Shown: in pieces, positions 20,881 through 33,262 of the stretch
How the letters are laid out: every line of letters begins with the position of its first letter
Position numbering within the stretch: position 1 is the stretch's first letter
NCBI GenBank assembly: GCA_016839815.1
Contig: JAEOTM010000032.1
Span: 62,001-126,000 of the forward strand
Length of the DNA stretch: 64,000 nt
Reading direction: 5' to 3'
Origin: Candidatus Hodarchaeota archaeon
GTDB taxonomy: Archaea; Asgardarchaeota; Heimdallarchaeia; Hodarchaeales; Hodarchaeaceae
Translations under genes and position numbers: made by a program
Notes under the pieces: model-generated
What the model saw: the letters and a program-made list of their open reading frames with translations, nothing else
The model's database searches: none
What the model was told of the DNA's origin: nothing

Positions 20881-22188
20881 TTACGTGGCTTTGGCAACTT
20901 TTGCTGCAGCTCTAGCTTTCTTTTTTCGCGCTTTTTCACGTTTTAATGCAATGTCAAGTTTATTTTTTCGTGCTTGGAGTCCATAATGAATCCATAATCC
21001 AAACGCTCGATACCAAACGTGAGCGAATTTTCCGAAAGGGGCTAAGATCATTAGCTCCATTATGGTAATTACATGGATAACAAAGAACCAATAACTCCAG
21101 ATTGAGGGGATGGAGGTTAGATAGTATGTCAGTGTGATTAAAAATCCAGTTAACCCAACAAGAAATAGATTTGTTAGAAATAACCAATCACAAGTAAGAC
21201 TATGACTTGCATAACGACTATTTTTCTGTACACGAGACCGCACAGCCATAACTACACCGATCATTAATGAAATCCCACTAAAAATCCCCAATAAACGAAT
21301 AGGGTGCGTAATCTCAACCAATTGATTGGCATCTGGTTTTAAAAACATATTCAAAGTTGTAGCTATACCTAAACCAAAGAAACCCCATAATATAAAGAGA
21401 TGCATTAACCAACGGTTTCTAATAAATTGTGATTTAAATTCTGGACGGTGCGGGGGAAGTGCACACTCAAGCTGCCTGTATTGTAGAAAAACTTCTTTGA
21501 AGATTACTATAAATGCCTGTTTGGTCATGATAAACGGAGAAAATAGTAAATGGTAGGCGGTATTGAGCTTCAGATCATTTCTTCGAGTCTTAAAAGCTGT
21601 TTTTACCCCGTTTCGTAGATTTGAATCATACTCCTTCGAAATTTGCCTATACATATTGAGGATAGATAATCCAATTATAAGGAAAAGTACCCCTGCAATT
21701 GCTATCCCCACAATCTCGACAATTTCTTTCGACACAACGTCAAAAAGCCTAACTGGCCTTCCTTCAACAATTTTTTCAGGATTGCCTAGAAGGTTAAAGA
21801 GCACTATTGCAAAAAGAGCTACAAAACCCATAAGGAAGAACCCACCAAATCGGTTCTGGTTAATAATACGAGATAAACCTGTAACTTCATATTGGCCCAT
21901 CGCCCACCTTCGAGATGCCATTACAAACTCTCCAGGTTCTGCATCACGAGGACATGTATCAGAACAATCGTTACAATATGAACATAACCACATCTGGTCA
22001 CTTCCGAGAATCTTTTCCTTTAATCCTACACTCGCATAACGAATGAGATTTCGTGGAAAAGGATCCGCATCATCGGATAAGGGACAAATTGCTGTGCAAT
22101 TGCCACAATTAAAACATGCACTGACATTAAAATCACTGGTGGAATAATTCTTGATTTCGTCAATTAAATCTGGATCAATAATGGTCAT
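20881..22188 (-). CDS. HdrC-HdrE (QmoC-like) fusion: two 4Fe-4S clusters plus membrane cytochrome-like half
   Basis: The N-terminal 100 residues carry two complete CxxCxxCxxxCP sites (Cys25/28/31/35 and Cys69/72/75/79), as in HdrC. The rest has about six membrane helices (around 111-130, 150-175, 265-285, 300-320, 335-360, 370-395) with histidines in HLFILWGF, VIHVIT and KFAHVWYR that could hold heme b, like HdrE, DsrM or the QmoC C-terminus. It would link soluble flavoproteins to the quinone pool. The C-terminus is strongly basic (KKKARAAAK). It is the downstream end of the Hdr-like operon, 13 bases after the winged-helix gene. Confidence 0.88.
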   Translation of the reverse strand: MTIIDPDLIDEIKNYSTSDFNVSACFNCGNCTAICPLSDDADPFPRNLIRYASVGLKEKILGSDQMWLCSYCNDCSDTCPRDAEPGEFVMASRRWAMGQYEVTGLSRIINQNRFGGFFLMGFVALFAIVLFNLLGNPEKIVEGRPVRLFDVVSKEIVEIVGIAIAGVLFLIIGLSILNMYRQISKEYDSNLRNGVKTAFKTRRNDLKLNTAYHLLFSPFIMTKQAFIVIFKEVFLQYRQLECALPPHRPEFKSQFIRNRWLMHLFILWGFFGLGIATTLNMFLKPDANQLVEITHPIRLLGIFSGISLMIGVVMAVRSRVQKNSRYASHSLTCDWLFLTNLFLVGLTGFLITLTYYLTSIPSIWSYWFFVIHVITIMELMILAPFGKFAHVWYRAFGLWIHYGLQARKNKLDIALKREKARKKKARAAAKVAKAT

Positions 22189-22201
22189 TCATTCTCACAT
22201 C

Positions 22202-22480
22202 CTATGAGGGGACTCTCGAAACAAGAGCCCACTTGTGATACTGTCCCTCACGATTAGATGTTTCTACAACAAGACTGTACTTTCTCATACTGGTCAGATA
22301 CCAATGAACGACATGCTTGGGCTGACCAATTTCTTCAGCAATTGCTGGAATAGTCTTTTCTTTTGAAGTATCAACATCACTACCCAGTAAAGCTTTACGT
22401 ATGTGATTCTTAATTACGCTGGCTTCAAGAACGCGATTAAAGCGATTCTGAAGTACATTTAGTGGTTTAGAATTACTCAT
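22202..22480 (-). CDS. Small winged-helix/HTH protein inside the Hdr-like operon
   Basis: A 92-residue protein with a helix-turn-helix: TIPAIAEEIGQPKHVVHWYLTSM, followed by a wing-like strand (YSLVVETSNREGQYHKWALV). Its ATG overlaps the stop of the HdrA-type gene by four bases, so the two are translationally coupled, and the next gene begins 13 bases downstream. It is thus an integral part of the operon. It could be an autoregulator, or an HTH domain used for protein contact. I do not know a named family. Confidence 0.75.
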   Translation of the reverse strand: MSNSKPLNVLQNRFNRVLEASVIKNHIRKALLGSDVDTSKEKTIPAIAEEIGQPKHVVHWYLTSMRKYSLVVETSNREGQYHKWALVSRVPS

Positions 22481-24525
22481 ATGTCAACCTCCTGCACAAA
22501 TCCATCAATCATACCTTCCAAAGCTGCTAATGAATACCCTTGAACATCAATTGCTCCTGGAGTGGGACACACTGCAACACAAGCACCACAACCTTTGCAT
22601 AGTGCAGGATTTACTTGTGCACAAGAAACAATTTCATTATTGATAGTTGTTTCAACCATTTGTATTGCATCAAGATATTCACATTCATTTACACATAGAC
22701 CTGTCCCTGTACAAATCTCGGGTTTTACTTTAGCCACATAGGGTTCGAGTTCTGTAAATTCCTTACCCAAAATAATAGATGCTTTGGAAGCTGCGGCAAG
22801 TGCTGCGGAAGTTGCTTCTGTAATATCAAAAGGTGCTTGAGCGGTGCCCGCTAGCATAATACCACTGTTAGCCACCTCAACAGGCCGTAATTTCGGATGT
22901 ACTTCCAGAAGAAAACGATCAGCTCCAATAGGAAGATTGAGCTGTTCGGTTAGATTTTTTTGATCTTTCGCTACCATTCCTACTGCAAGAACAACTAAAT
23001 CAACAGGAATCTCAATTTCTTCTCCGTAAGTTAAATCGTCCTTTACTTTCATATGGAGACGGTGCCCTTCTTCAGGTTTATAAACAGATGGTAAATCATT
23101 GGAAGTATATTTAAGAAAAATAGCTCCAGACTTGGAAGCAACCTCATAATAATCTTCTTCATGAAAACGACCATAAGTTCGCATATCACGATAAAGATTA
23201 TACGTTTTTACGTGAGGAAAACGTTCTTTAAGTTCATTAACGGATTGAAGACTAGCAGTGCAACATACGCGAGAACAATACTCGTTCAGTTCCCCATTGC
23301 AATTCTGACCAGGTTTAAAGTTCTTTCCAGCTTGTCTACTTCCCACACAGTGAATGAATCCAACCGATTTGATTGGATGTCCATCCCACTCTAATTTCTC
23401 TTCAAATTCTCCGCTAGGGGCTGTCATTCGGATGAATTGGGGTAATGTGATTACATTTGGATATTCATTCCATCCATATTCCCCTTCAAATGGAATATAT
23501 GTATCAAAACCAGTGGCTAATATTATTACTCCTACGGTGATATCAGTAAATGTAGGATCAGCGGCTACTTGAAATCGATTTGAATCATCAAGAGCTGCTT
23601 TACATTCTCCACAACTCGTACATGAATTCCAATCAATTGCGGGAGCTTGAGGATAATGACCTGGATGTGGACGGAGAATTGCTTTTTGATCATACTCTCC
23701 GTTGGGGGTAAGTTCCCCATCAACAACTACAGGACAAGCATTCATTGCTATCCGAAGTTCTGCATCACTAATATGACCAACAATTCCTCGTGAAACATGT
23801 CTTTTCAGAGATAATTCAAAATTACCAATATAACCTTTAGCTTTATCAATTTGAGTATTTATATAAACAGTAATTAATGGATGCTTAATAACCTCACTAA
23901 TCAGAAGAGCTAAAGATTCACAGGCAACCTCATTTGTAGGAAAAATTCTATCTAATGATGCCATACGACCTCCTAAATAGGGAGATCTTTCTATTAATTC
24001 CACAGCAAGACCAGAATCAGCTAGGTCTTTAGCTGCACGTAAACCAGAGACACCACCTCCAACAACAAGGACTCTTTTCGTTGTTTGAATCTTTATAGTT
24101 TCTAGTGGATCAAAATTAACTGCTTTATTGACTGCAGCACGAATCAGAGAGATGGCCTTTTCGGTTGCTTTCTCAGGAGTGTGAGGATGAGCCCACGAAA
24201 CTTGTTCTCGGATATTGGCGTGTTCATAGAGAAATACATTCATTCCACCACGATCAGTAGCTCCTCGAAAGGTTGTTTCATGTAGTTTAGGGCTGCAAGA
24301 TGCTACTACAACTCTATCTATTATACCATCTTGGATATCTTTTTCAATAAGTTCTTGTCCTGTTTTAGAACACATAAACATATTACGACGGGATACAACA
24401 ACTTTGGGGTCCTCCTCTAGAGCGTTACGAACCGTTTCTACATTTACAACATCACTTATATTTCCACCACAGTGACAAATATAGACTCCTGCCCGCGGAA
24501 AGTCATTTTTTTCTTCATTGGTCAT
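22477..24525 (-). CDS. hdrA: HdrA-type flavoprotein (QmoB-like), 682 aa
   Basis: The order is: N-terminal HdrA domain with VYICHCGGN (Cys17/Cys19), FAD Rossmann motif VVGGGVSGLRAAKDL and the glycine pair YLGGRMASL, a ferredoxin-like SCTSCGECK insertion, the HdrA signature YCSRVCCTAS, and two C-terminal 4Fe-4S sites. The last is complete (Cys643/646/649/653). The one before it, from Cys605, reads CTGTGLCVNEC: the second Cys is replaced by Thr608, so it may bind an altered or no cluster. By family it bifurcates or confurcates electrons, or passes them towards quinone. GGAG lies upstream; the gap to the preceding gene is two bases. Confidence 0.92.
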   Translation of the reverse strand: MTNEEKNDFPRAGVYICHCGGNISDVVNVETVRNALEEDPKVVVSRRNMFMCSKTGQELIEKDIQDGIIDRVVVASCSPKLHETTFRGATDRGGMNVFLYEHANIREQVSWAHPHTPEKATEKAISLIRAAVNKAVNFDPLETIKIQTTKRVLVVGGGVSGLRAAKDLADSGLAVELIERSPYLGGRMASLDRIFPTNEVACESLALLISEVIKHPLITVYINTQIDKAKGYIGNFELSLKRHVSRGIVGHISDAELRIAMNACPVVVDGELTPNGEYDQKAILRPHPGHYPQAPAIDWNSCTSCGECKAALDDSNRFQVAADPTFTDITVGVIILATGFDTYIPFEGEYGWNEYPNVITLPQFIRMTAPSGEFEEKLEWDGHPIKSVGFIHCVGSRQAGKNFKPGQNCNGELNEYCSRVCCTASLQSVNELKERFPHVKTYNLYRDMRTYGRFHEEDYYEVASKSGAIFLKYTSNDLPSVYKPEEGHRLHMKVKDDLTYGEEIEIPVDLVVLAVGMVAKDQKNLTEQLNLPIGADRFLLEVHPKLRPVEVANSGIMLAGTAQAPFDITEATSAALAAASKASIILGKEFTELEPYVAKVKPEICTGTGLCVNECEYLDAIQMVETTINNEIVSCAQVNPALCKGCGACVAVCPTPGAIDVQGYSLAALEGMIDGFVQEVDI

Positions 24526-24527
24526 AT

Positions 24528-25901
24528 TTAGCTCTCCGAATTAGCCTCTTCGGCCGTAACAGGAACAATAGTGGATTCCAAAGATGAAAATTCAGTTCGT
24601 TCTTTGTGTTTAGCTTTTAGAAATTTTACAACCTTCATGCTAGCTGCGGAACCCTCTACAATTGTATCAACAATATCTTTGGGGCCCATAGCAGTTCCAG
24701 CACCAAATACACCTTCCAAACTGGTCAAAACAGGATTAAGTTTAAGGTCGACAGCTTCAATAAATCCATCTTTATCAACCTCAACTGGAAAATGACTCGT
24801 AGCACACGAGGCTTGGGTTAATCCCAGACTTAACACTACCATGTCATACTCTTCTTTTGATTTACCACCATTACTACCAATATTTTCGATAGAAAGAATC
24901 AAATTATTAGTTTCAGGATCCTCTTGAATATCTCCAACCTTACCTTTGATAAATTCAACACCCATAGCTTTGGCATTCTCAAAAAATTGCTCGTAACCCT
25001 TACCAAATGCGCGAATATCCATGTAATAACAAGTAACTTGTACAATCGGCAACGCACCAGTAATCAGGATCGCCTGTTTTATTGTATACATGCAACAAAC
25101 TCGACTGCAGTAAGTACGATCTAATGAAGCATCACGGGAACCAGCACAATGAATGTATGCAATATGCATTGGAACTCGACCATCTGATGGACGACGAATT
25201 CCACCGTAAGGCCCATTCGGGGCAAGAAGTCGCTCAGCAGTCATTGAAGAAATAACATTTTGAAATTCGCCACCACCCCACTCTTTCTTTTCACCCACAG
25301 GGGTTAGCTCAAATCCAGTAGCTAATACAACTGACTCAGCTTCTACCTGAACCTGTTCATCTTTTTGAAAATAATCAACCGCGTCTGCTGGGCAAATTCG
25401 AGAACAACCAAGACAAGCAATACAATGTTGCATATCGATTAACGCTACTTGGGGAAGAGCAGTTTGGAATGGAATGTAAATTGCCTTCCGTGTTCCAATA
25501 CCCATTTCAAATTCGGAGGGAACATCGACTGGACACTGAAATTCGCACTGACGACAACCTGTACACTTTTCAACATCTATAAAGCGAGCTTTCTTTTTGA
25601 TATCAACTACAAAATTACCTTTTTCATTTTTATGATACCCAGTCACTTCCGAATATGTCCAAGAATCGATCTTCTTGTGGTGGGAAGTGCTACTCATCTT
25701 GGGAGTGGTAATACAACTCGCGCAATCAAGAGTAGGAAACACTTTTGAAAGTTGGATCATTTTACCGCCGATACTGGGTTCTTTATCCACCACAAGCACA
25801 TCATAATCTTGATCCGCAAGATCTAATGCCGTTTGTAAACCAGCAATTCCCCCACCTATAACTAAAGTAGAATAGATTGTCTCTTCTTCGTCTTTAATCA
25901 T
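24528..25901 (-). CDS. hdrA: HdrA-type flavoprotein (QmoA-like), about 457 aa
   Basis: FAD-binding GGGIAG begins near residue 16. The HdrA hallmark FPTLDCASCITTPKM has Cys60/Cys63. Two full 4Fe-4S sites follow: CTGCRQCEFQCP (Cys113/116/119/123) and CIACLGCSRICP (Cys160/163/166/170). YCSRVCCMYTIKQ is near residue 270. The size and arrangement match QmoA-type short HdrA proteins rather than full methanogen HdrA. The ATG at 25901 is chosen because GGAGG lies eight bases before it; the longer frame to 25928 would overlap the preceding gene. It probably works as a heterodimer with the next HdrA-type protein. Confidence 0.92.
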   Translation of the reverse strand: MIKDEEETIYSTLVIGGGIAGLQTALDLADQDYDVLVVDKEPSIGGKMIQLSKVFPTLDCASCITTPKMSSTSHHKKIDSWTYSEVTGYHKNEKGNFVVDIKKKARFIDVEKCTGCRQCEFQCPVDVPSEFEMGIGTRKAIYIPFQTALPQVALIDMQHCIACLGCSRICPADAVDYFQKDEQVQVEAESVVLATGFELTPVGEKKEWGGGEFQNVISSMTAERLLAPNGPYGGIRRPSDGRVPMHIAYIHCAGSRDASLDRTYCSRVCCMYTIKQAILITGALPIVQVTCYYMDIRAFGKGYEQFFENAKAMGVEFIKGKVGDIQEDPETNNLILSIENIGSNGGKSKEEYDMVVLSLGLTQASCATSHFPVEVDKDGFIEAVDLKLNPVLTSLEGVFGAGTAMGPKDIVDTIVEGSAASMKVVKFLKAKHKERTEFSSLESTIVPVTAEEANSES

Positions 25902-25920
25902 CACTAGTTCCTCCATGGGT

Positions 25921-26379
25921 TTACCCATTCGCTTCTACTGCTACAGACGAAGGTGATTTATTCAAAATGTCTTTAGCAGGTTGAAGACTCCGTAAATACT
26001 CATCCATTTCCTTGATTTCCTTTACAACATGTTTTGCACAAACAGTACATATTGCAGTCAATTTTAAACGCTTAGATTCTAAACCGTACTCATGCTTCAT
26101 TCGTTTCATCACTTTGTTAACTCGTAAGCTAAGACGCTTGAATGCACCAGAATAAGGACATTCCTCACCACAGGACATGATGATTATACCATCAATTCCC
26201 TTACGAAAAGAATCAATATAGAATTCTTCAGGAAAAATGACCGGAGAGGGAACGCGCATTACATATGAATTTGGCGGATACTCCAAATGTTGTTGTCCTG
26301 CATTATCCACCCCAGGATATGAACACATGATTGTAGTCAAAACAAGGATTTTTGGAGTATATTCAACTGTCGCAGACAT
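25921..26379 (-). CDS. mvhD: MvhD/HdrD-delta family iron-sulfur protein
   Basis: A 152-residue protein of the MvhD/FlpD family. Family marks are MCSYPGVDNAGQ near the N-terminus, LEYPPNSYVMRVPSP, GIDGIIIMSCGEECPYSGA and a final AICTVCAKHVVKEI. In methanogens MvhD holds a [2Fe-2S] cluster and joins a hydrogenase or formate dehydrogenase to HdrA; in QmoB the domain is fused to the flavoprotein. Here it is a separate gene, 16 bases or more after tusA and just before the QmoA-like gene. The start at 26379 is an ATG; a TTG six codons upstream is possible. Confidence 0.88.
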   Translation of the reverse strand: MSATVEYTPKILVLTTIMCSYPGVDNAGQQHLEYPPNSYVMRVPSPVIFPEEFYIDSFRKGIDGIIIMSCGEECPYSGAFKRLSLRVNKVMKRMKHEYGLESKRLKLTAICTVCAKHVVKEIKEMDEYLRSLQPAKDILNKSPSSVAVEANG

Positions 26380-26413
26380 GGAACGTTTTCCAACCAAAAA
26401 GAATTTATTAAAA

Positions 26414-26680
26414 TTATTTCTTCCTGATCACGTAAAAACGATCGTATCCATCATCTTCTACGAAACCAAGATACTGATGTTTGGCAAAATTAGCCCATGC
26501 AGGGATATCTTCACGTGTACCGGGGTCGGAAGACCAAATTTCCAAAACTTCATCAATATCTACTTTACCGACTGCTTTCTTGGTTTCAAGTAGTGGGCCA
26601 GGACAAGCAGATCCACGTGCATCTACAATATGATCTGATTCTTCAGGGACTTCATTACCCAAATCTGTTTCTTCACTCAT
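26414..26680 (-). CDS. tusA: TusA family sulfur carrier, first copy
   Basis: An 88-residue TusA-like protein. The sulfur-accepting Cys is in DARGSACPGPLLETKKAV (CPxP motif). The second half carries SSDPGTREDIPAWA, shared with both other TusA copies of the window. TusA proteins hold a cysteine persulfide and pass it between partners. The ATG at 26680 is preferred; the GTG at 26692 seems part of the ribosome site. It opens the Hdr/Qmo-like operon, which suggests that the carrier feeds or drains that complex. Confidence 0.93.
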   Translation of the reverse strand: MSEETDLGNEVPEESDHIVDARGSACPGPLLETKKAVGKVDIDEVLEIWSSDPGTREDIPAWANFAKHQYLGFVEDDGYDRFYVIRKK

Positions 26681-26738
26681 TTTTTTAACCACTTTTTTAC
26701 TAATTAGTTTTATCTACAGATAACTTTTCAAGAGGATA

Positions 26739-26762
26739 TTTAACGATTGGTTTAACAATTGT
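26739..26762. promoter_or_regulatory. Tandem 12-bp direct repeat in the divergent tusA/lrp promoter
   Basis: TTTAACGATTGG is followed directly by TTTAACAATTGT (10 of 12 bases equal). A TATA-like TATTTATATATG for the minus strand lies at about 26786-26797, so the repeat would sit just downstream of the tusA start point. It is a plausible binding site for the neighbouring Lrp-type regulator. Confidence 0.4.
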
Positions 26763-26941
26763 AAATTATGATATGAAATGCTATAACATATATAAATATG
26801 AATAACAAAAATACTCATTTAATTTATATAGCATAGATCAAAATGTAGAAAACCATATAAACTTTTTACGAAAAAGAGATTTTTGAAAAGCTTCGATCAC
26901 AAAAATTCGCTTAAATCAAGTTTACAAGTGGAAGATCTAGA

Positions 26942-27478
26942 ATGTTTAGTCGTGATCAAATTAAACGGTTGTTTGAACTCAGTAAAGACCAAATTGTAGA
27001 CGAAACCGATTTCTACATCGTTTGTCTATTAGAACATCATGGAGAAAAAAAAGTACCAGAAATCGTTGAAGCTCTAGAGGAAGAGGGAATCCACCTAAAA
27101 CCTGTTTCTGTCACCCGTCGCATTAAACGTTTAAAAGAAAAAGGTGTATTAGTAAAGATGGTTCCTTTAAGCCGTCTTTGGAAACTTGGATTCTCCCGAG
27201 ATCTACTTCTTATGATTCAAACTGAACCTGGTAGAGATATTGACAAAATAATTGATCAAATAACTCCTATTGAAGGAGTGAAGCGGTTATATCAGATTTT
27301 TGGTGAATATGACTTGCTAGTAGAATTATGTTGTCTAGGAGATGAAGGACTGCAGGAAAGTCTCGCAGCTATTAATTGTGTACCTGGTTTGTCTCGAATA
27401 TCGAAATCTCCTATTCAACATCGAATCAAAGAACATTACTACAATCTACAAGAAAATAAGGAAGAACTAACAGTCTAG
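26942..27478 (+). CDS. Lrp/AsnC-type transcriptional regulator
   Basis: A 178-residue regulator: an N-terminal winged helix (KKVPEIVEALEEEGIHLKPVSVTRRIKRLKEKGVL) and a C-terminal RAM-like ligand domain (DLLLMIQTEPG, VKRLYQIFGEYDLLVELCC). It is divergent from the tusA-mvhD-hdrA operon and heads a unit with a DsrE protein, so control of the sulfur genes is likely. The pair of cysteines in VELCCLGDEG may sense redox or sulfur state, but that is speculation. Confidence 0.88.
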   Translation: MFSRDQIKRLFELSKDQIVDETDFYIVCLLEHHGEKKVPEIVEALEEEGIHLKPVSVTRRIKRLKEKGVLVKMVPLSRLWKLGFSRDLLLMIQTEPGRDIDKIIDQITPIEGVKRLYQIFGEYDLLVELCCLGDEGLQESLAAINCVPGLSRISKSPIQHRIKEHYYNLQENKEELTV

Positions 27479-27561
27479 GGGTTGGTAAATTCTAATTACT
27501 TCATCGAAAAACAACTCCAGAAAAATCCCCCTAGTATCAAAAAAGGAAAGTTGAAAAAAAA

Positions 27562-27918
27562 ATGGTAAAATTCGTAATTGTCTCCACTCATGGAAATGAC
27601 AACTTTGAACGAGCAAGTATGGCTTGGGCAGTAGCAAACGCTGCACATGTGTTAGATGCAGAGGTTATGATGTTTTTACAAGCTGAAGGCGTTAATGTAG
27701 TCCGAAAGGATTTCTGTAAAGGTTGGGTATTCCCTCCATTCACTCCTCTCGAGGATTTGATTAAAAATTTCATGGAAATGGGTGGTCAGGTATATGCATG
27801 TGTTCCTTGTGTTGAAGCCAGGGAGATTAAACAGGAAGATTATATTGAAGGTGTAAAGCTCGCTGGTGCTACTAAACTTCTGGCTGAGTCAGTGGATGCC
27901 AAAGTCTTCACCTACTAA
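27562..27918 (+). CDS. dsrE: DsrE family sulfur-transfer protein
   Basis: A 118-residue DsrE/F-like protein. The fold marks are a first strand VKFVIVSTHG, a helix with ASMAWAVANAAHVL, VMMFLQAEGV, and the conserved Cys strand VYACVPCVEARE. Such proteins carry sulfur on a Cys and exchange it with TusA. AAAGGAAAG precedes the ATG. The gene is 83 bases after the Lrp regulator on the same strand and opposite to the Hdr-like operon. Confidence 0.88.
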   Translation: MVKFVIVSTHGNDNFERASMAWAVANAAHVLDAEVMMFLQAEGVNVVRKDFCKGWVFPPFTPLEDLIKNFMEMGGQVYACVPCVEAREIKQEDYIEGVKLAGATKLLAESVDAKVFTY

Positions 27919-27928
27919 ACAACACTCA

Positions 27929-29047
27929 CTAGACTTCATCTAATAGCGTTTTTGTAAAATCCACGAAACTTCCATTGTCCTGGATGTGTTCCATTTCCTT
28001 ACTCTGGAGAACTGGATCCCAGTTCTTCCATCCTCTATTTTGTGCTTCTCTGAGATTTCGTAATGCTTTGTCTACCTCATACTGAGTAGCATAGGATCGA
28101 GCAGCCAATACATAAACCCATATAGGAACTTTACCTAGTTTAAAAGCTCGCTCAAAATCCTCTATTGCTTTTCCATACTGACTCTGATAGAAATATCTCA
28201 TTCCTTTCTCTGCATAGTGTTCTGCCTCATCAAACATGCATATATAGTGAACATAATCACGTTCTTTCGTAAAACCTACTTTTTCTGCAACAGCTATTGA
28301 ACCATAATTGAGATTATCACAATGCCAGCCTACTGTTTTAAACCCTATAGATAGACAATGATCAATAGTTGCTGCCGCGGTAAGTGCCCCTAAACCTTTC
28401 ATTCGATAAGATGCTGTTGTGATTATTCCGATTTCACATTCATCCCCACTCTCACAATCAGCATTAATCCAGACAACCACTTTATTTCTGTGAACTAAAC
28501 ACTTTCCAAAGCCCATTCTAACTTGATCTTCCAAATTTGATTCAATCCACTCTTGAATGTCATCAGGAAATTCAAAGGATTCGGTAGCAAAAGTTGAATC
28601 AATTTGATGAAGATCATAGCCGTTAGGGATTTTGTTTTTCCATTCAAGTGAAATTTTGTTGCAGGAAAAGTGAATCCGATGAGAGGGGAGAGGAGTTCTA
28701 ATATCAAATATCTCTGGGAAAGTTTTTCTCCATTCATCGCTGTCTATATGAAAGAAAAGGTATGAAAGAAAGTTTGGATTGACAGGAGAGTAAAACTGTT
28801 TTTTTAGAATCATATCTTGAATTAAGACCTTAAGTCCCTGATTAAACTCCTCATTATGTGAATTTCCAGCCAGAAACCAACCCTCGGTTGAAGCCATGAA
28901 GCCACTCGTAGGATTATCACTATCATTGACCCAAATTTTCCCCTGGGAAGGCCCTTCGATTACAGCTCTAACTACTACTTGATAATCAAATCCCTTGAAT
29001 AAAACTCTTGTATTAGGGTAAAACTGTCTTTTCAGTTCGTGGAATAT
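27929..29047 (-). CDS. GNAT acetyltransferase with TPR-like tail; apparent ATA start
   Basis: The central and C-terminal parts show a GNAT core (CEIGIITTASYRMKGLGALTAAATI, and later VAEKVGF) and about 90 helical residues with TPR character (GKAIEDFERAFKLGK, VDKALRNLREAQ). The longest frame with a normal start begins at 28897, but coding continues 50 codons upstream without a stop, reading RAVIEGPSQGKIWVND, the usual N-terminal part of this family. That extension has no ATG, GTG or TTG. It does have an ATA at 29047 with AAAGGTG (29055-29061) seven bases ahead. Either ATA is used, or the start codon was lost. Confidence 0.8.
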   Translation of the reverse strand: MFHELKRQFYPNTRVLFKGFDYQVVVRAVIEGPSQGKIWVNDSDNPTSGFMASTEGWFLAGNSHNEEFNQGLKVLIQDMILKKQFYSPVNPNFLSYLFFHIDSDEWRKTFPEIFDIRTPLPSHRIHFSCNKISLEWKNKIPNGYDLHQIDSTFATESFEFPDDIQEWIESNLEDQVRMGFGKCLVHRNKVVVWINADCESGDECEIGIITTASYRMKGLGALTAAATIDHCLSIGFKTVGWHCDNLNYGSIAVAEKVGFTKERDYVHYICMFDEAEHYAEKGMRYFYQSQYGKAIEDFERAFKLGKVPIWVYVLAARSYATQYEVDKALRNLREAQNRGWKNWDPVLQSKEMEHIQDNGSFVDFTKTLLDEV

Positions 29048-29290
29048 GGTACAACACCTTTAGAAGTTAATTTTCGTATCTCTTCTAAAATGAATTTATA
29101 AAACTATGTCATACGGCAAGAACTCATTTACAGAAGACTTATAAGATTATTCAACTAGTTTCTAGCAACAGTTTGTAGTACAGACCGTTAAGATATTATT
29201 AAAAATGAAAAAAGGAGGAGATCATCTATCCTGATCAATGAGATTATTGCTTTGCTTCAGCTTGTATCTGAGAAATAACACCGCTTGTAA

Positions 29291-29698
29291 TTAGCTATAA
29301 CAATACGTGCCCAACAGTAGTAATGCTTGAACACCAGCCAATGAGAGATGTCCAATGATATCGTTCAATGGTAAAAATTGTGCTACAAATAACACCCAAA
29401 ATATTCCCAAAATTAACCCTATTTTTATGAATACACCTTGATTGAGAATTAAGTATCCCATTACTACTTCTAATACCACAATTAAGAGTATGACTAACTT
29501 TTCATTGGGAATAATGAGTTTTTCTAAAAATTCTCTTTGGATCGGAAGACGTGTATTTTCTAAGCAAACGGCCCATAAATATTCGGTATTATTGATTGTA
29601 TGAAACAAATTAAAAACTGCTGAAATTAAGTAAAACAATCCTAATAGAACCCGACTCACAGTTAATATAGTTACGATTTCACCTTCAAACAAGGACAA
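29291..29698 (-). CDS. DoxX/MauE-like small membrane protein
   Basis: A 135-residue protein with four hydrophobic helices (about 9-30, 65-85, 88-108, 112-132), the pattern of DoxX-type proteins: LTVSRVLLGLFYLISAVFN at the start and a second block with VLEVVMGYLIL. The family includes a thiosulfate:quinone oxidoreductase subunit (DoxD) but is mostly uncharacterised, so a role in sulfur metabolism is suggested only by its position between the two sulfur operons. Confidence 0.75.
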   Translation of the reverse strand: MSLFEGEIVTILTVSRVLLGLFYLISAVFNLFHTINNTEYLWAVCLENTRLPIQREFLEKLIIPNEKLVILLIVVLEVVMGYLILNQGVFIKIGLILGIFWVLFVAQFLPLNDIIGHLSLAGVQALLLLGTYCYS

Positions 29699-29999
29699 AC
29701 TATCAATCCTTCAATATACCGTTAATTAAAGGCTTTAATGATAGGATTTTAAGAATTTCTTCATGAGATCAGCTTGAAAATGTGAAAGATTGATTCTTAT
29801 CAACCCTAATCATATTGGAATGCTATTCGGATAGATGTAGTCCATATTAGTTTATAAAGTTCGCGTGTACGCTGAATGGTACTGTTTACACCTGGTTTCA
29901 CTTGAATTAATGCGATTTTAGTTTCAACATTGTATACATTTTACCAGAAACAATTTTGAGTTTAAAAGAAAAAAAAGAAGAATCAAAGATTCTTGATTA
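29699..29999. other. Intergenic region between the DoxX-like gene and the sulfur operon
   Basis: About 300 bases, AT-rich and without a credible gene. A TATA-like TTTATAAAG (near 29860) could serve the minus-strand DoxX-like gene with a long leader. I see no other structure. Confidence 0.5.
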
Positions 30000-30563
30000 T
30001 TAATCGTGACTGATCGCTTTTTTCTGTATCAGAGAAATAACCCCACAAGCACCACAGCGGTTCTGACAAGAATGATCATCGAAAAGTTGCTTTACAGAGT
30101 TTGGATGATTGAATAACCAGAAGGGTTTGTCAGCAAATCCTTCTGTTTCTTTAACGAAGAAGCTATTCCGTCTTTTTACTCCTGGAAGATGACTAAGGGG
30201 AAAAGTATCGATAAATTTACTAATTTTCTCCCTCGAATCAGCTACTAAACAGATAACAAGATTATACTCAAAACCTGAAACAGAGAACATCGCGGTAACC
30301 AAAGGACAATCTTGGAAATATTCCAAGATTGCTTGTTCAGTATCGGGATTTGTTATTTCAATAAAGGATAGAGCATGACTAAATTTGAGCTGTGTGATAT
30401 TAATTCCAATACCTGGAGAAATCAGATTTTTTTCCTCAAGATCATCAAATCTCGCTTTAATAGTTCCTTTAGCATAGCTTAAGTCTTTTGCAGCTTGATT
30501 AAAAGAACAACGTGGATGCTTTTGAAAATAATCAATAATTTTCTTGTCTTTTTCGTCTATCAT
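30000..30563 (-). CDS. Lrp-type regulator with C-terminal cysteine cluster
   Basis: A 187-residue regulator with an N-terminal HTH (CSFNQAAKDLSYAKGTIKARFDDLEE), an Lrp-like sensor half (ALSFIEITNPDTEQAILEYFQDCP, FSVSGFEYNLVICLV), and an unusual tail with SCQNRCGACG (Cys166, Cys170, Cys173). The CxxxCxxC set could bind a metal or Fe-S cluster, or sense persulfide. It is the last gene of the tusA-dsrE2-dsrE-tusA-sqr unit, 40 bases after the SQR-like gene, so it probably controls that operon. Confidence 0.85.
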   Translation of the reverse strand: MIDEKDKKIIDYFQKHPRCSFNQAAKDLSYAKGTIKARFDDLEEKNLISPGIGINITQLKFSHALSFIEITNPDTEQAILEYFQDCPLVTAMFSVSGFEYNLVICLVADSREKISKFIDTFPLSHLPGVKRRNSFFVKETEGFADKPFWLFNHPNSVKQLFDDHSCQNRCGACGVISLIQKKAISHD

Positions 30564-30603
30564 GCTCTAGAAACCTCTATTTATAACGTTCCCATTTTTT
30601 CTC

Positions 30604-31776
30604 TCACATTCGACCTGATAGGAATCCATAGAAATATAGAAACCGTTGGTACTTCTTAAAATAATAGAATAACCGATTTGAGATATAACCCAAACCAAAG
30701 GGAGGACGATTGTAATTAAAATCGAAAAACATAGCGGAAGTTAGGGAAGTCATCACTAAACAGGTTGCGTGTCCATTATATTTCTCTTTAACCTCAGAAA
30801 TATCAATCTTTCCTTTGAGTACATCAACTAGGTTATGAGCTACCGCCATAGCCTGATAGTGGGCTGAAGAACCCGCTTTAGATACAGGTAGGTTTGCAGT
30901 ATCACCAAGAGCGAAAATAAAGGGAAATTCCTCATTTTGAAGAGTTTTTGTATTCACATTCACCCAACCAGATTCATCTGCGATCGGACTACCCTGGAGG
31001 TAAAGCTGCCCCGTATGAGGGGGAACCATAAGAAGAAGATCATATTCAATTTCATCACCTTCAAGTGATTCAACTACCTTCTTATCAGCATGAATTGTTT
31101 CTGTATTGAAGAAAGTATGTAAATTAATGTTTTTCTTGGCAAATTTCTTCTCTATATGAACATTCGCCTTTTCAATTGAAAAAGCACCACCAATCGGGCT
31201 CAAGTAATGTAAATTCGTTTTATTACGTAATTTTTTTCGTCTTAGGAAATGTTCCATCATAAATATTCCTTCGAGAGGAGCAACAGGACATTTGAAGGGG
31301 AGATCGGCAATACCAACAACAACATTCCCGCCTGTACCCTTTTCTACAAAATCATCAAGGCTTTTGCGTAATTCATGAATTCCTTCTTCGTTATAATAAT
31401 GATTAGCGCCTTCTTTGAAGCCAGGAACACTATCATAGTCATAATGAGCTCCTGTAGCAATAACTAGATAGTCGAAGGAAAGATTGTTTCCACTAGCAAA
31501 GGAAACAGATTTGTTCTCAATATCTAAGCCAGTAACCTCTTCCTTAAGTATGTTAACTCGCTTATTAACGACTTTTCGAACTGGTTTATACATAGAATTC
31601 AGTGATTTCTTATCAAAGATCCTAAAAGGTAGATCCGCCTCATAAAAAACATTATCTTGTTTTGAGACTAATGTAACGTCAGCTTGTTTTTTAGCTTTAC
31701 GTCCTAGAAGGTTTGCAACAATTACTCCTCCAGTACCTCCTCCTAGTATAACAACTTTGGCTTTTTCTTGACTCAT
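30604..31776 (-). CDS. Sulfide:quinone oxidoreductase-like FAD protein
   Basis: A 390-residue flavoprotein of the SQR/FCSD type: FAD motif ILGGGTGG, the strand DYLVIATGAHYD, the second flavin motif FIFALGDTANLP, and a C-terminal aromatic, basic segment (FYYFKKYQRFLYFYGF) that could seat on the membrane. Two cysteines fit redox positions: Cys163 in FKCPVAPLEG and Cys339 in ATCLVMTS. A third family Cys near 128 is absent. It would oxidise sulfide to sulfane sulfur and pass electrons to quinone. It lies in the operon with two TusA and two DsrE proteins. Confidence 0.88.
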   Translation of the reverse strand: MSQEKAKVVILGGGTGGVIVANLLGRKAKKQADVTLVSKQDNVFYEADLPFRIFDKKSLNSMYKPVRKVVNKRVNILKEEVTGLDIENKSVSFASGNNLSFDYLVIATGAHYDYDSVPGFKEGANHYYNEEGIHELRKSLDDFVEKGTGGNVVVGIADLPFKCPVAPLEGIFMMEHFLRRKKLRNKTNLHYLSPIGGAFSIEKANVHIEKKFAKKNINLHTFFNTETIHADKKVVESLEGDEIEYDLLLMVPPHTGQLYLQGSPIADESGWVNVNTKTLQNEEFPFIFALGDTANLPVSKAGSSAHYQAMAVAHNLVDVLKGKIDISEVKEKYNGHATCLVMTSLTSAMFFDFNYNRPPFGLGYISNRLFYYFKKYQRFLYFYGFLSGRM

Positions 31777-31807
31777 ATGATCACCAAAAAAATAGGAATA
31801 AGGAAAA

Positions 31808-32050
31808 CTATCGTGCTTTCCTTACTTGAAATCTTGTGTACCCGTTTTCTTCAACAACGGCTACCATCTCATGTTTAGCTTTCTCAACCCACTTAGGGAT
31901 GTCTTTTATTGAGCCTGCGTCTTTAGACCAGACTTCGTATACTTTCCCAGTCTCTCCTTTTTTGATGGATTTAATCAATTCCATTAAGGGACCTGGACAA
32001 AAAGCATTTCTTGCATCCATAACTTTGTCTGCTTGTACTTCATTACTCAT
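31808..32050 (-). CDS. tusA: TusA family sulfur carrier, second copy
   Basis: An 80-residue TusA-like protein with MDARNAFCPGPLMELIKSI (active Cys in CPGP) and SKDAGSIKDIPKWVEKAKHE in the second half. It lies between the DsrE-like and SQR-like genes, with gaps of 28 and 31 bases, so one transcript is likely. It differs enough from the other two copies to serve other partners. Confidence 0.92.
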   Translation of the reverse strand: MSNEVQADKVMDARNAFCPGPLMELIKSIKKGETGKVYEVWSKDAGSIKDIPKWVEKAKHEMVAVVEENGYTRFQVRKAR

Positions 32051-32078
32051 ATTAATACACCTTTTGTTAAAATTTAAT

Positions 32079-32489
32079 TTAAAGAAACATTACCCGATCA
32101 GCAAGCATTGCCTCTTCAGCAAGAGTATTGACTCCTGCGATTTTATCAACCATAGGAAGAAGATCTTCTTTTTCTAATCCTAAGATTTCTGTGATTTGAA
32201 CACAGGCTACAATTGTTACTTCTCCCAGATCTTTCAAATCTTCGAGCAGCTCTTTCCAATGCAGCAAATTTCCAGCCTTTCTTGCCTGATTGACTTTTTC
32301 TACCACTTCAGGGTAGATACTAGTGACATCTGGTTCAGGAGGAGCATCCTTTTTCAAGGCATAAACCGCATCGTGCATGAAGAAAATAAGTACTTCATGG
32401 TCACTGGTTACCGCTCCAGATGCTATAATTGCTAAGGTCTGCAGTTTATCAGTAGCCGCAGAATCACAAACCATAAGAAATTTTCCCAT
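32079..32489 (-). CDS. dsrE: DsrE-like sulfur-transfer protein
   Basis: A 136-residue protein of the DsrE/F fold. It opens with a strand KFLMVCDSAATDKLQTLAIIASGAV, has DHEVLIFFMHDAVYAL, and a later VTIVACVQITEILGL strand with the conserved Cys. It ends in a hydrophobic strand (ADRVMFL). It is embedded between the DsrE2-like and TusA genes. By family it is a persulfide carrier or TusA partner. Confidence 0.85.
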   Translation of the reverse strand: MGKFLMVCDSAATDKLQTLAIIASGAVTSDHEVLIFFMHDAVYALKKDAPPEPDVTSIYPEVVEKVNQARKAGNLLHWKELLEDLKDLGEVTIVACVQITEILGLEKEDLLPMVDKIAGVNTLAEEAMLADRVMFL

Positions 32490-32523
32490 CTAACTCACCT
32501 AGAAAAAATAAGAAAAGAGAAAA

Positions 32524-33012
32524 TTACATGAAAAGGGTGATATCAGCATCTTTCGCAAATTCAAGGAATGTTGCTGCACCACCAGTCTCGACACCATCAA
32601 TAATATCGGATTTTTTAATGCCCATGACATCCTGGGTCATCTGACAGGCGATCATACGAACTCCACCTTCAATACAGGCTTCACGGAGTTCCTCAAATTT
32701 TGCGACATTAGCCTTTTTCATCCAGCTTTTCATCATCATCGTCGCAATCCGGGTCATTCCAGGCAACATTCCCATCCAATTTGGAACGGGTATTAGTCCG
32801 AATGCTTTCGGTGCTGCAGGATTAGCTATGGGGCTAACTTTGAGGTCCTTACTACGTTTTTTGTGAATTAGATCGAAACCATAGAATGTAAAGAAAATCG
32901 CGACTTCCATATCCATGGCCACACCTGTTGAAGCTAGGAGAACAGGGGGATAAGCTGCATCAAGAGTTCCTTGGGATGCAATAATTGCCATACGTTTAGG
33001 TTTTTCACTCAT
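32524..33012 (-). CDS. DsrE2-like (DsrE/DsrF/DrsH) protein
   Basis: A 162-residue member of the DsrE2-type family. Marks are MAIIASQGTLDAAYPPVLLASTGVAMDMEVAIFF-type first strands, a long Met-rich middle (NWMGMLPGMTRIATMMMKSWMKK) that may contact membrane or lipid, and the Cys strand VRMIACQMTQDVMGI. The C-terminal GGAATFLEFAKDADITLFM completes the fold. It starts 13 bases after tusA. DsrE2 proteins travel with TusA and are thought to exchange sulfur with it. Confidence 0.9.
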   Translation of the reverse strand: MSEKPKRMAIIASQGTLDAAYPPVLLASTGVAMDMEVAIFFTFYGFDLIHKKRSKDLKVSPIANPAAPKAFGLIPVPNWMGMLPGMTRIATMMMKSWMKKANVAKFEELREACIEGGVRMIACQMTQDVMGIKKSDIIDGVETGGAATFLEFAKDADITLFM

Positions 33013-33025
33013 AATGTCGCATCCT

Positions 33026-33262
33026 TTACTTCATTCGTTTGACTAAATATCGATAATCTTTTGGACCTAACTCTTCAGAAGAAAGAAGATCTTGTCCAGT
33101 GGTACGTGTCCAAGCAGGAATATCAGCCATACTTCCAGGGTCAGTTGATAGTATTTCTAAAATTTGACCGATTTCCATTTCTTTCAAAGCTTTCTTTGAT
33201 TTTAGAACTGGCATTGGGCAACTCAAGCCGCGCGCATCTAAGGTTTTATGTACTTGACTCAT
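33026..33262 (-). CDS. tusA: TusA family sulfur carrier, third copy, first gene of the operon
   Basis: A 78-residue TusA-like protein with LDARGLSCPMPVLKSKKAL (Cys15 in CPxP) and STDPGSMADIPAWTRT. The ATG at 33262 is chosen: AAGGATG lies eight bases upstream and it fits the family length. A frame running back to a TTG at 33388 would add an unrelated 42-residue leader. It leads the six-gene sulfur operon. Its promoter is flanked by an inverted repeat (33449-33474), leaving a leader of about 170 bases. Confidence 0.92.
   Translation of the reverse strand: MSQVHKTLDARGLSCPMPVLKSKKALKEMEIGQILEILSTDPGSMADIPAWTRTTGQDLLSSEELGPKDYRYLVKRMK

Follow-up and report, generated by a model that had tools for sequence, protein, structure and literature searches.

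Two operons and their genomic setting

The window analyzed here, a 64,000-nucleotide stretch of archaeal DNA (contig C45, 62001-126000), contains two tight operons on the minus strand, operon 1 running from 26692 to 20881 and operon 2 from 33262 to 30000. The contig belongs to a Heimdallarchaeia-like MAG (G000) of 4.24 Mb that is 89.5% complete and 7.8% contaminated. Genes were identified from open reading frames (ORFs), their translations and Pfam/NCBIfam scans. This analysis confirmed every part listed in an earlier, sequence-only reading of the window: three TusA (PF01206, 68-87 bits), three DsrE-type proteins (P0012, P0013, which is DsrE2, and P0016), one sulfide:quinone oxidoreductase (SQR)-like flavoprotein, two HdrA-type flavoproteins, an MvhD, an HdrC-HdrE fusion and two Lrp/AsnC-type regulators. 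Their combination as a sulfur relay beside a Qmo-like complex, as that reading had proposed, is supported.

Operon 1 has the order tusA-mvhD-hdrA(short)-hdrA(long)-wHTH-hdrCE, with intergenic gaps of 16, -8, 2, -4 and 13 bases. It begins with TusA a (26414..26692, ATG likely 26680; 73.5 bits), which carries a CPGP active-site motif, followed by an MvhD-like subunit with remodelled cysteines (25921..26397, ATG likely 26379; PF02662, 76 bits). The short HdrA (HdrA_S; 24528..25928, 466 aa; 5ODC HdrA, 398 bits) consists of an FAD domain with an inserted ferredoxin domain and is without N- and C-terminal domains; its best named relative comes from a Heimdallarchaeota MAG (71% identity). The long HdrA (HdrA_L; 22477..24525, 682 aa; HdrA2 model, 552 bits; 5ODC HdrA, 461 bits) has N-terminal, FAD and C-terminal 2[4Fe-4S] domains. 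The small winged-helix protein that follows (22202..22480, 92 aa; AlphaFold pLDDT 86) has ArsR/SmtB-type repressors as its best Foldseek matches. Its gene is kept between hdrA_L and hdrC in both archaea and bacteria, and the product may act in regulation or as a structural part of the complex. Comparable genes of 79-85 aa were also seen within HdrA clusters of other bacteria (L027-L029).

The last gene of operon 1 encodes the QmoC-type HdrC-HdrE fusion (20881..22188, 435 aa), with two [4Fe-4S] motifs (8 Cys) and a membrane haem b domain. It scored 185 bits against NCBIfam qmoC, below the cut-off of 300, compared with 455 for the true QmoC of Desulfobacca. The 8 cluster cysteines and His263, His372 and His390 are invariant, and are common to the canonical QmoC of Desulfobacca. 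UbiA-type prenyltransferases were the only quinone-route candidates seen in the genome; the futalosine menaquinone route was dropped, as its marker PF02621 had no match in the genome.

Operon 2 reads tusA-dsrE2-dsrE-tusA-sqr-lrp, with gaps of 13-40 bases. Its genes encode TusA c (33026..33262; CPMP, 87 bits), DsrE2 (32524..33012; PF13686, 162 bits; NF047629, 190 bits against a cut-off of 210), DsrE-type protein b (32079..32489; PF02635, 41 bits), TusA b (31808..32050; CPGP, 68 bits), the SQR-like flavoprotein (30604..31776) and, as the last gene, the conserved Lrp/AsnC-type regulator 2 (30000..30563; PF13412/PF01037). The CPxP active-site cysteine is present in all three TusA of the window. 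The ATG at 33262 is the likely start of TusA c and fits the end given to the region in the sequence-only reading; a longer ORF to 33388 (TTG) probably does not mark the true start. The SQR-like protein matched the NCBIfam SQR type III model best (316 bits) and had human SQOR as its best PDB matches, and the redox cysteines expected of the SQR/FCSD fold, Cys163 and Cys339, were invariant in 13 aligned sequences. The interval between the two operons holds a plus-strand pair, Lrp/AsnC-type regulator 1 (26942..27478; PF01037) and DsrE-type protein a (27562..27918; PF02635, 55 bits; CVPC motif), together with a GNAT gene. A small four-helix membrane ORF with a TTG start (29291-29698) appeared DoxX-like by eye and had no family match.

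The sequence-only reading had listed AprAB, DsrAB, a lipoate-binding protein and a CCG-domain HdrB as missing from the window. Profile searches of the genome, at its 89.5% completeness, found no DsrA and no AprA (best 36 bits against a cut-off of 642). CCG (HdrB-type) domains are absent from C45, but 19 matches on C25, C189 and other contigs ruled out a genome lacking HdrB. GcvH-family proteins were found only on other contigs (C25, C189 and C112). Those on C25 and C189 lie near paralogous Hdr clusters and exceed the NCBIfam gcvH cut-off, and their candidacy as LbpA was therefore dropped. Putative lipoate ligases on C189 were also rejected, as the 229-257 aa neighbours are CcmB-, ABC-ATPase- and cytochrome-c-assembly-like.

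Contigs C25 and C189 each carry a second operon type, DsrE-TusA-MvhD-HdrA-HdrA-HTH-QmoC, as well as HdrABC-MvhAG clusters. GcvH-family genes were seen at their loci (L084, L085, L106, L107), with TusA-YeeE also on C25 and cytochrome c assembly-like genes on C189. Over 5.8 kb, C25 and C189 are 77% identical in DNA; they may be paralogues or, in view of the contamination figure, come from two populations. The genome holds 11 TusA domains in total; two of them lie in a row on C156 (L091, 9604-11139), each in a longer ORF (258 and 245 aa).

Conservation of the operons and remodelling of MvhD

The distribution of operon 1 was surveyed by fetching the regions around short-HdrA and MvhD matches and profile-scanning all ORFs. 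This analysis revealed the order tusA, mvhD, hdrA_S, hdrA_L, wHTH at 27 loci, constant as far as the contigs reach. Nineteen lie in 15 Asgard genomes, which represent seven families, including four from the window's class, and 8 in 8 genomes of the Desulfobacca class. Thus the gene order, for which the sequence-only reading had advised a search in related genomes, recurs in two domains, Archaea and Bacteria; this recurrence places the block far from chance and marks it as a widespread module. DsrE, DsrE2, SQR or YeeE transporter genes adjoin many of the loci, and a DsrE like DsrE-type protein a often lies downstream of QmoC or HdrB. Near the Desulfobacca cluster, a TusA-like protein (L116, 371-667) has Phe replacing the catalytic Cys.

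Two forms of the 3' end were observed. Most Asgard loci and L116 of Desulfobacca end in the QmoC-type HdrC-HdrE fusion, and two Asgard genomes (G167, G171) and three Desulfobacca-class loci (L119, L121, L122) end in HdrC plus a CCG-type HdrB. The earlier description of the complex as having no HdrB therefore holds for C45 but not for these orthologous clusters, and covers just one of the two outputs.

The subunit that sets these loci apart is MvhD. Canonical MvhD, from solved proteins and Asgard genomes, has five conserved cysteines, a first CxxC among them, with Ser and Glu at two later columns. In the TusA-linked proteins the first canonical Cys is lost in 27/27, including the window protein, which thus departs from the five-Cys pattern, and the remaining ligand cysteines are variable. 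Instead, a C(T/S)VC motif (CTVC in the window) is invariant in 27/27 where the last main helix begins; it occurs in 0/31 canonical MvhD, and a true QmoB, that of Desulfobacca adjoining AprA, also lacks it in its MvhD domain. The secondary structure of the predicted fold suggests that the CxxC loop would sit at the strand ends of the Rossmann-like fold, as the older cluster ligands do. An adjacent TusA gene was found for 27/27 CxxC-type MvhD and 0/31 canonical MvhD (Fisher P ~4e-17, a value that ignores shared ancestry); the MvhD profile by itself led to 15 of the 27 loci, and 12 came in via HdrA or as seeds. The CxxC-type proteins form a single clade (SH-aLRT 99), and the neighbouring TusA retains its active-site Cys, with CPGP in 26/27. 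The remodelled MvhD, which does not appear in the sequence-only reading, is the most specific feature of the module.

Operon 2 is conserved as well: the genus and other families share the order tusA, dsrE2, dsrE, tusA, sqr, in many cases with lrp. It is present in G043, G045, G046 and G047, where CxxC-type MvhD was not found, and three genomes with operon 1 (G039, G001, G027) gave no SQR match; these genomes are MAGs, and single absences are weak evidence. The two operons are nevertheless adjacent or merged in some genomes. The joining genes are kept in G041 (L096), as operon 1 plus Lrp1-DsrE-GNAT-Lrp2; in G027, DsrE2-DsrE-TusA lies directly upstream of mvhD; and in G026, SQR lies upstream of tusA. 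Lrp regulator 1 also stands beside DsrE in G041, G042 and G043. The proposed two-operon pathway thus stands in that both operons are conserved and sometimes joined, but each often occurs without the other. They are thus modules that can be combined, not a single obligatory pathway, and the SQR operon is conserved in its own right with only a loose tie to operon 1. In G045 and G046 (L183, L184), HdrC-HdrB stands immediately after an SQR-TusA-DsrE operon, giving this sulfur relay a different outlet.

Phylogeny of the HdrA pair and comparison with known systems

The HdrA proteins were placed in a 62-row quick IQ-TREE phylogeny whose root is not fixed, with a long QmoB branch and one reference genome (Desulfobacca) for QmoA and QmoB. 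TusA-linked HdrA_S and HdrA_L each formed a clade of their own, and the branching of the two largely agreed. Outside both clades lay methanogen HdrA (5ODC) and Desulfobacca QmoA/QmoB; the grouping with methanogen HdrA that would have counted against the sequence-only reading was not observed, and orthology of the pair with QmoA/QmoB was rejected on this tree. The likeness to QmoABC drawn in that reading therefore survives in the split architecture and the carrier gene in front, but not in descent: the complex would work like Qmo, yet its HdrA pair is not orthologous to QmoAB. The sister HdrA pair comes from operons with MvhD, MvhG and the NiFe-hydrogenase MvhA ahead of QmoC (L088-L090, L092). 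As the sister clades carry a hydrogenase, we infer, with the root not fixed, that TusA and the changed MvhD stand in its place. The sister operons (L088, L089, L090 and L092 in G026, G029, G028 and G025) read hdrA_S-hdrA_L-mvhD-mvhG-mvhA-QmoC, a membrane-linked Hdr-hydrogenase complex without HdrB.

Operon 1 resembles type I QmoABC of sulfate reducers in having two HdrA-type flavoproteins, an MvhD domain and a membrane subunit of the HdrC-HdrE kind, and both have HdrBC as an alternative output. It differs from QmoABC in the QmoC score, in QmoA/QmoB orthology and in the AprAB link, its partner gene being TusA; its MvhD, moreover, is encoded separately and has a different set of cysteines. The nearest published idea is type II Qmo (Vulcanisaeta, Ammonifex), whose QmoAB are HdrA-like, as here, and occur with or without Dsr/Apr; in the accessible portion of that source, compared by description only, neither a TusA linkage nor a remodelled MvhD is described (PMC10504309). 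Methanogen-type HdrABC has a CCG-bearing HdrB in the operon, as do some orthologous clusters but not the window operon. The sHdr system, in the portion of the report on Metallosphaera cuprina seen (PMC4175335), likewise has TusA and DsrE beside an Hdr-like complex; the window, however, lacks HdrB1/HdrB2, the sHdrC1B1AhypC2B2 order and an adjacent lipoate protein, and has a membrane haem subunit. HdrA-MvhAGD hydrogenase complexes share HdrA and MvhD with operon 1, most closely in the sister Asgard operons, whereas operon 1 has TusA, changed MvhD ligands and no hydrogenase subunits.

YTD/DsrEFH type II clusters (PMC9751629, PMC13293266) contain YeeE-TusA-DsrE, a set also seen beside the paralogous copies L085 and L087, but do not share the complex of operon 1; YTD clusters are described without HdrA/MvhD/QmoC. 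Archaeal DsrEFH II has been reported near qmoAB or dsrMK (PMC9751629, PMC13293266), and such clusters may overlap in part with the operon 1 type. The TusA, MvhD and HdrA genes are treated separately in PMC12142623. No description of the TusA-MvhD-HdrA-HdrA-QmoC set was found in the literature, which is weak evidence because subscription journals lay outside the search.

A putative TusA-served sulfane-sulfur:quinone oxidoreductase

The fixed set of genes from tusA to the Qmo-like subunits, in Asgard archaea and Desulfobacca relatives, points to an undescribed route for electrons between sulfur and the membrane. We put at about 0.5 the probability that operon 1 encodes a membrane-bound, quinone-linked, TusA-served sulfane-sulfur oxidoreductase built like Qmo. 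The HdrA_S/HdrA_L flavoprotein pair, the HdrC-HdrE haem b arm and the separate MvhD-type subunit would form the complex, with TusA as soluble partner where related complexes rely on MvhAG or AprAB. The MvhD CxxC would meet TusA-bound sulfane sulfur, and two electrons would pass to or from the HdrA FAD; by homology, the path would comprise MvhD, HdrA FAD and clusters, HdrC clusters, haem b and quinone. The DsrE proteins and the SQR operon would load or unload the TusA pool. The TusA-MvhD step is suggested by the gene linkage and the CxxC, and physical contact between the two, redox chemistry on sulfane sulfur and coupling to quinone are all predictions from homology and gene context. Quinone coupling would not be universal, since HdrC-HdrB closes some of the orthologous operons. 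The window version has no HdrB-like site for sulfur chemistry, which counts against the mechanism.

If the mechanism holds, there is a slight lean towards electron flow from sulfur to quinone, with sulfur reduction the weaker but still substantial option. The lean arises because the sister complexes have hydrogenase, an electron donor, in the place of TusA and because the linked SQR also feeds quinone. Both points weigh against a reductase, in which electrons from quinol, perhaps joined by confurcation at HdrA with those of a low-potential donor, would reduce TusA persulfide from sulfane, polysulfide or thiosulfate sulfur to sulfide; menaquinol is, in addition, a weak reductant for sulfur. Such a reductase would suit the occurrence of the complex in relatives of anaerobic sulfate reducers and the YeeE-type importer adjoining paralogous copies, and Qmo itself, in the portion of PMC10504309 available, serves APS reduction via AprAB; we nevertheless regard it as rather unlikely. 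Similarly doubtful is that the complex is simply type II Qmo sensu Neukirchen et al. 2023, already in phylogenies, with TusA a mere genomic neighbour. The window HdrA_S and HdrA_L are nearer HdrA than canonical QmoA/B in our tree, as reported for type II QmoAB, which occur with or without Dsr/Apr and whose function is left open in the part of that work seen (PMC10504309). The TusA linkage is exclusive across two domains, however, and MvhD is remodelled in the TusA-linked group only.

The role of the CxxC itself can be read in two ways, both tentative and each with about the same modest chance. A hydrogenase-type MvhD may have been converted into a TusA thiol/persulfide docking subunit, which would define an undescribed class of sulfane-sulfur:quinone oxidoreductase in Asgard archaea and the Desulfobacca class. 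Conversely, the CxxC may re-ligate an Fe-S cluster, leaving MvhD a pure electron carrier and TusA acting elsewhere on the complex. Many CxxC-type proteins retain two other cysteines at the same fold edge, and because these vary such a cluster is possible in some members; but only the CxxC is invariant, and of the other ligand cysteines L081 keeps none and L079 one. A last explanation, which would leave the redox complex to general electron transfer and give TusA a biosynthetic role (tRNA thiolation, Mo cofactor or selenium), draws on TusA being a general sulfur carrier with many copies in this genome. It appears very improbable, since TusA is always the first gene and co-occurs with the CxxC, and no biosynthetic partner was recognised in the clusters.

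If the sulfane-sulfur oxidoreductase reading is correct, Asgard archaea, to which the archaeal part of eukaryote ancestry is traced, would possess a dedicated energy-linked sulfur module, and anaerobes without Dsr and sHdr would have a testable TusA partner. The module would illustrate the re-plugging of Hdr/Mvh parts, in which a single flavoprotein core accepts either hydrogenase or TusA at one end and, at the opposite end, either quinone (HdrE) or HdrB, and the invariant MvhD CxxC would provide a sequence marker for picking such clusters from any genome.
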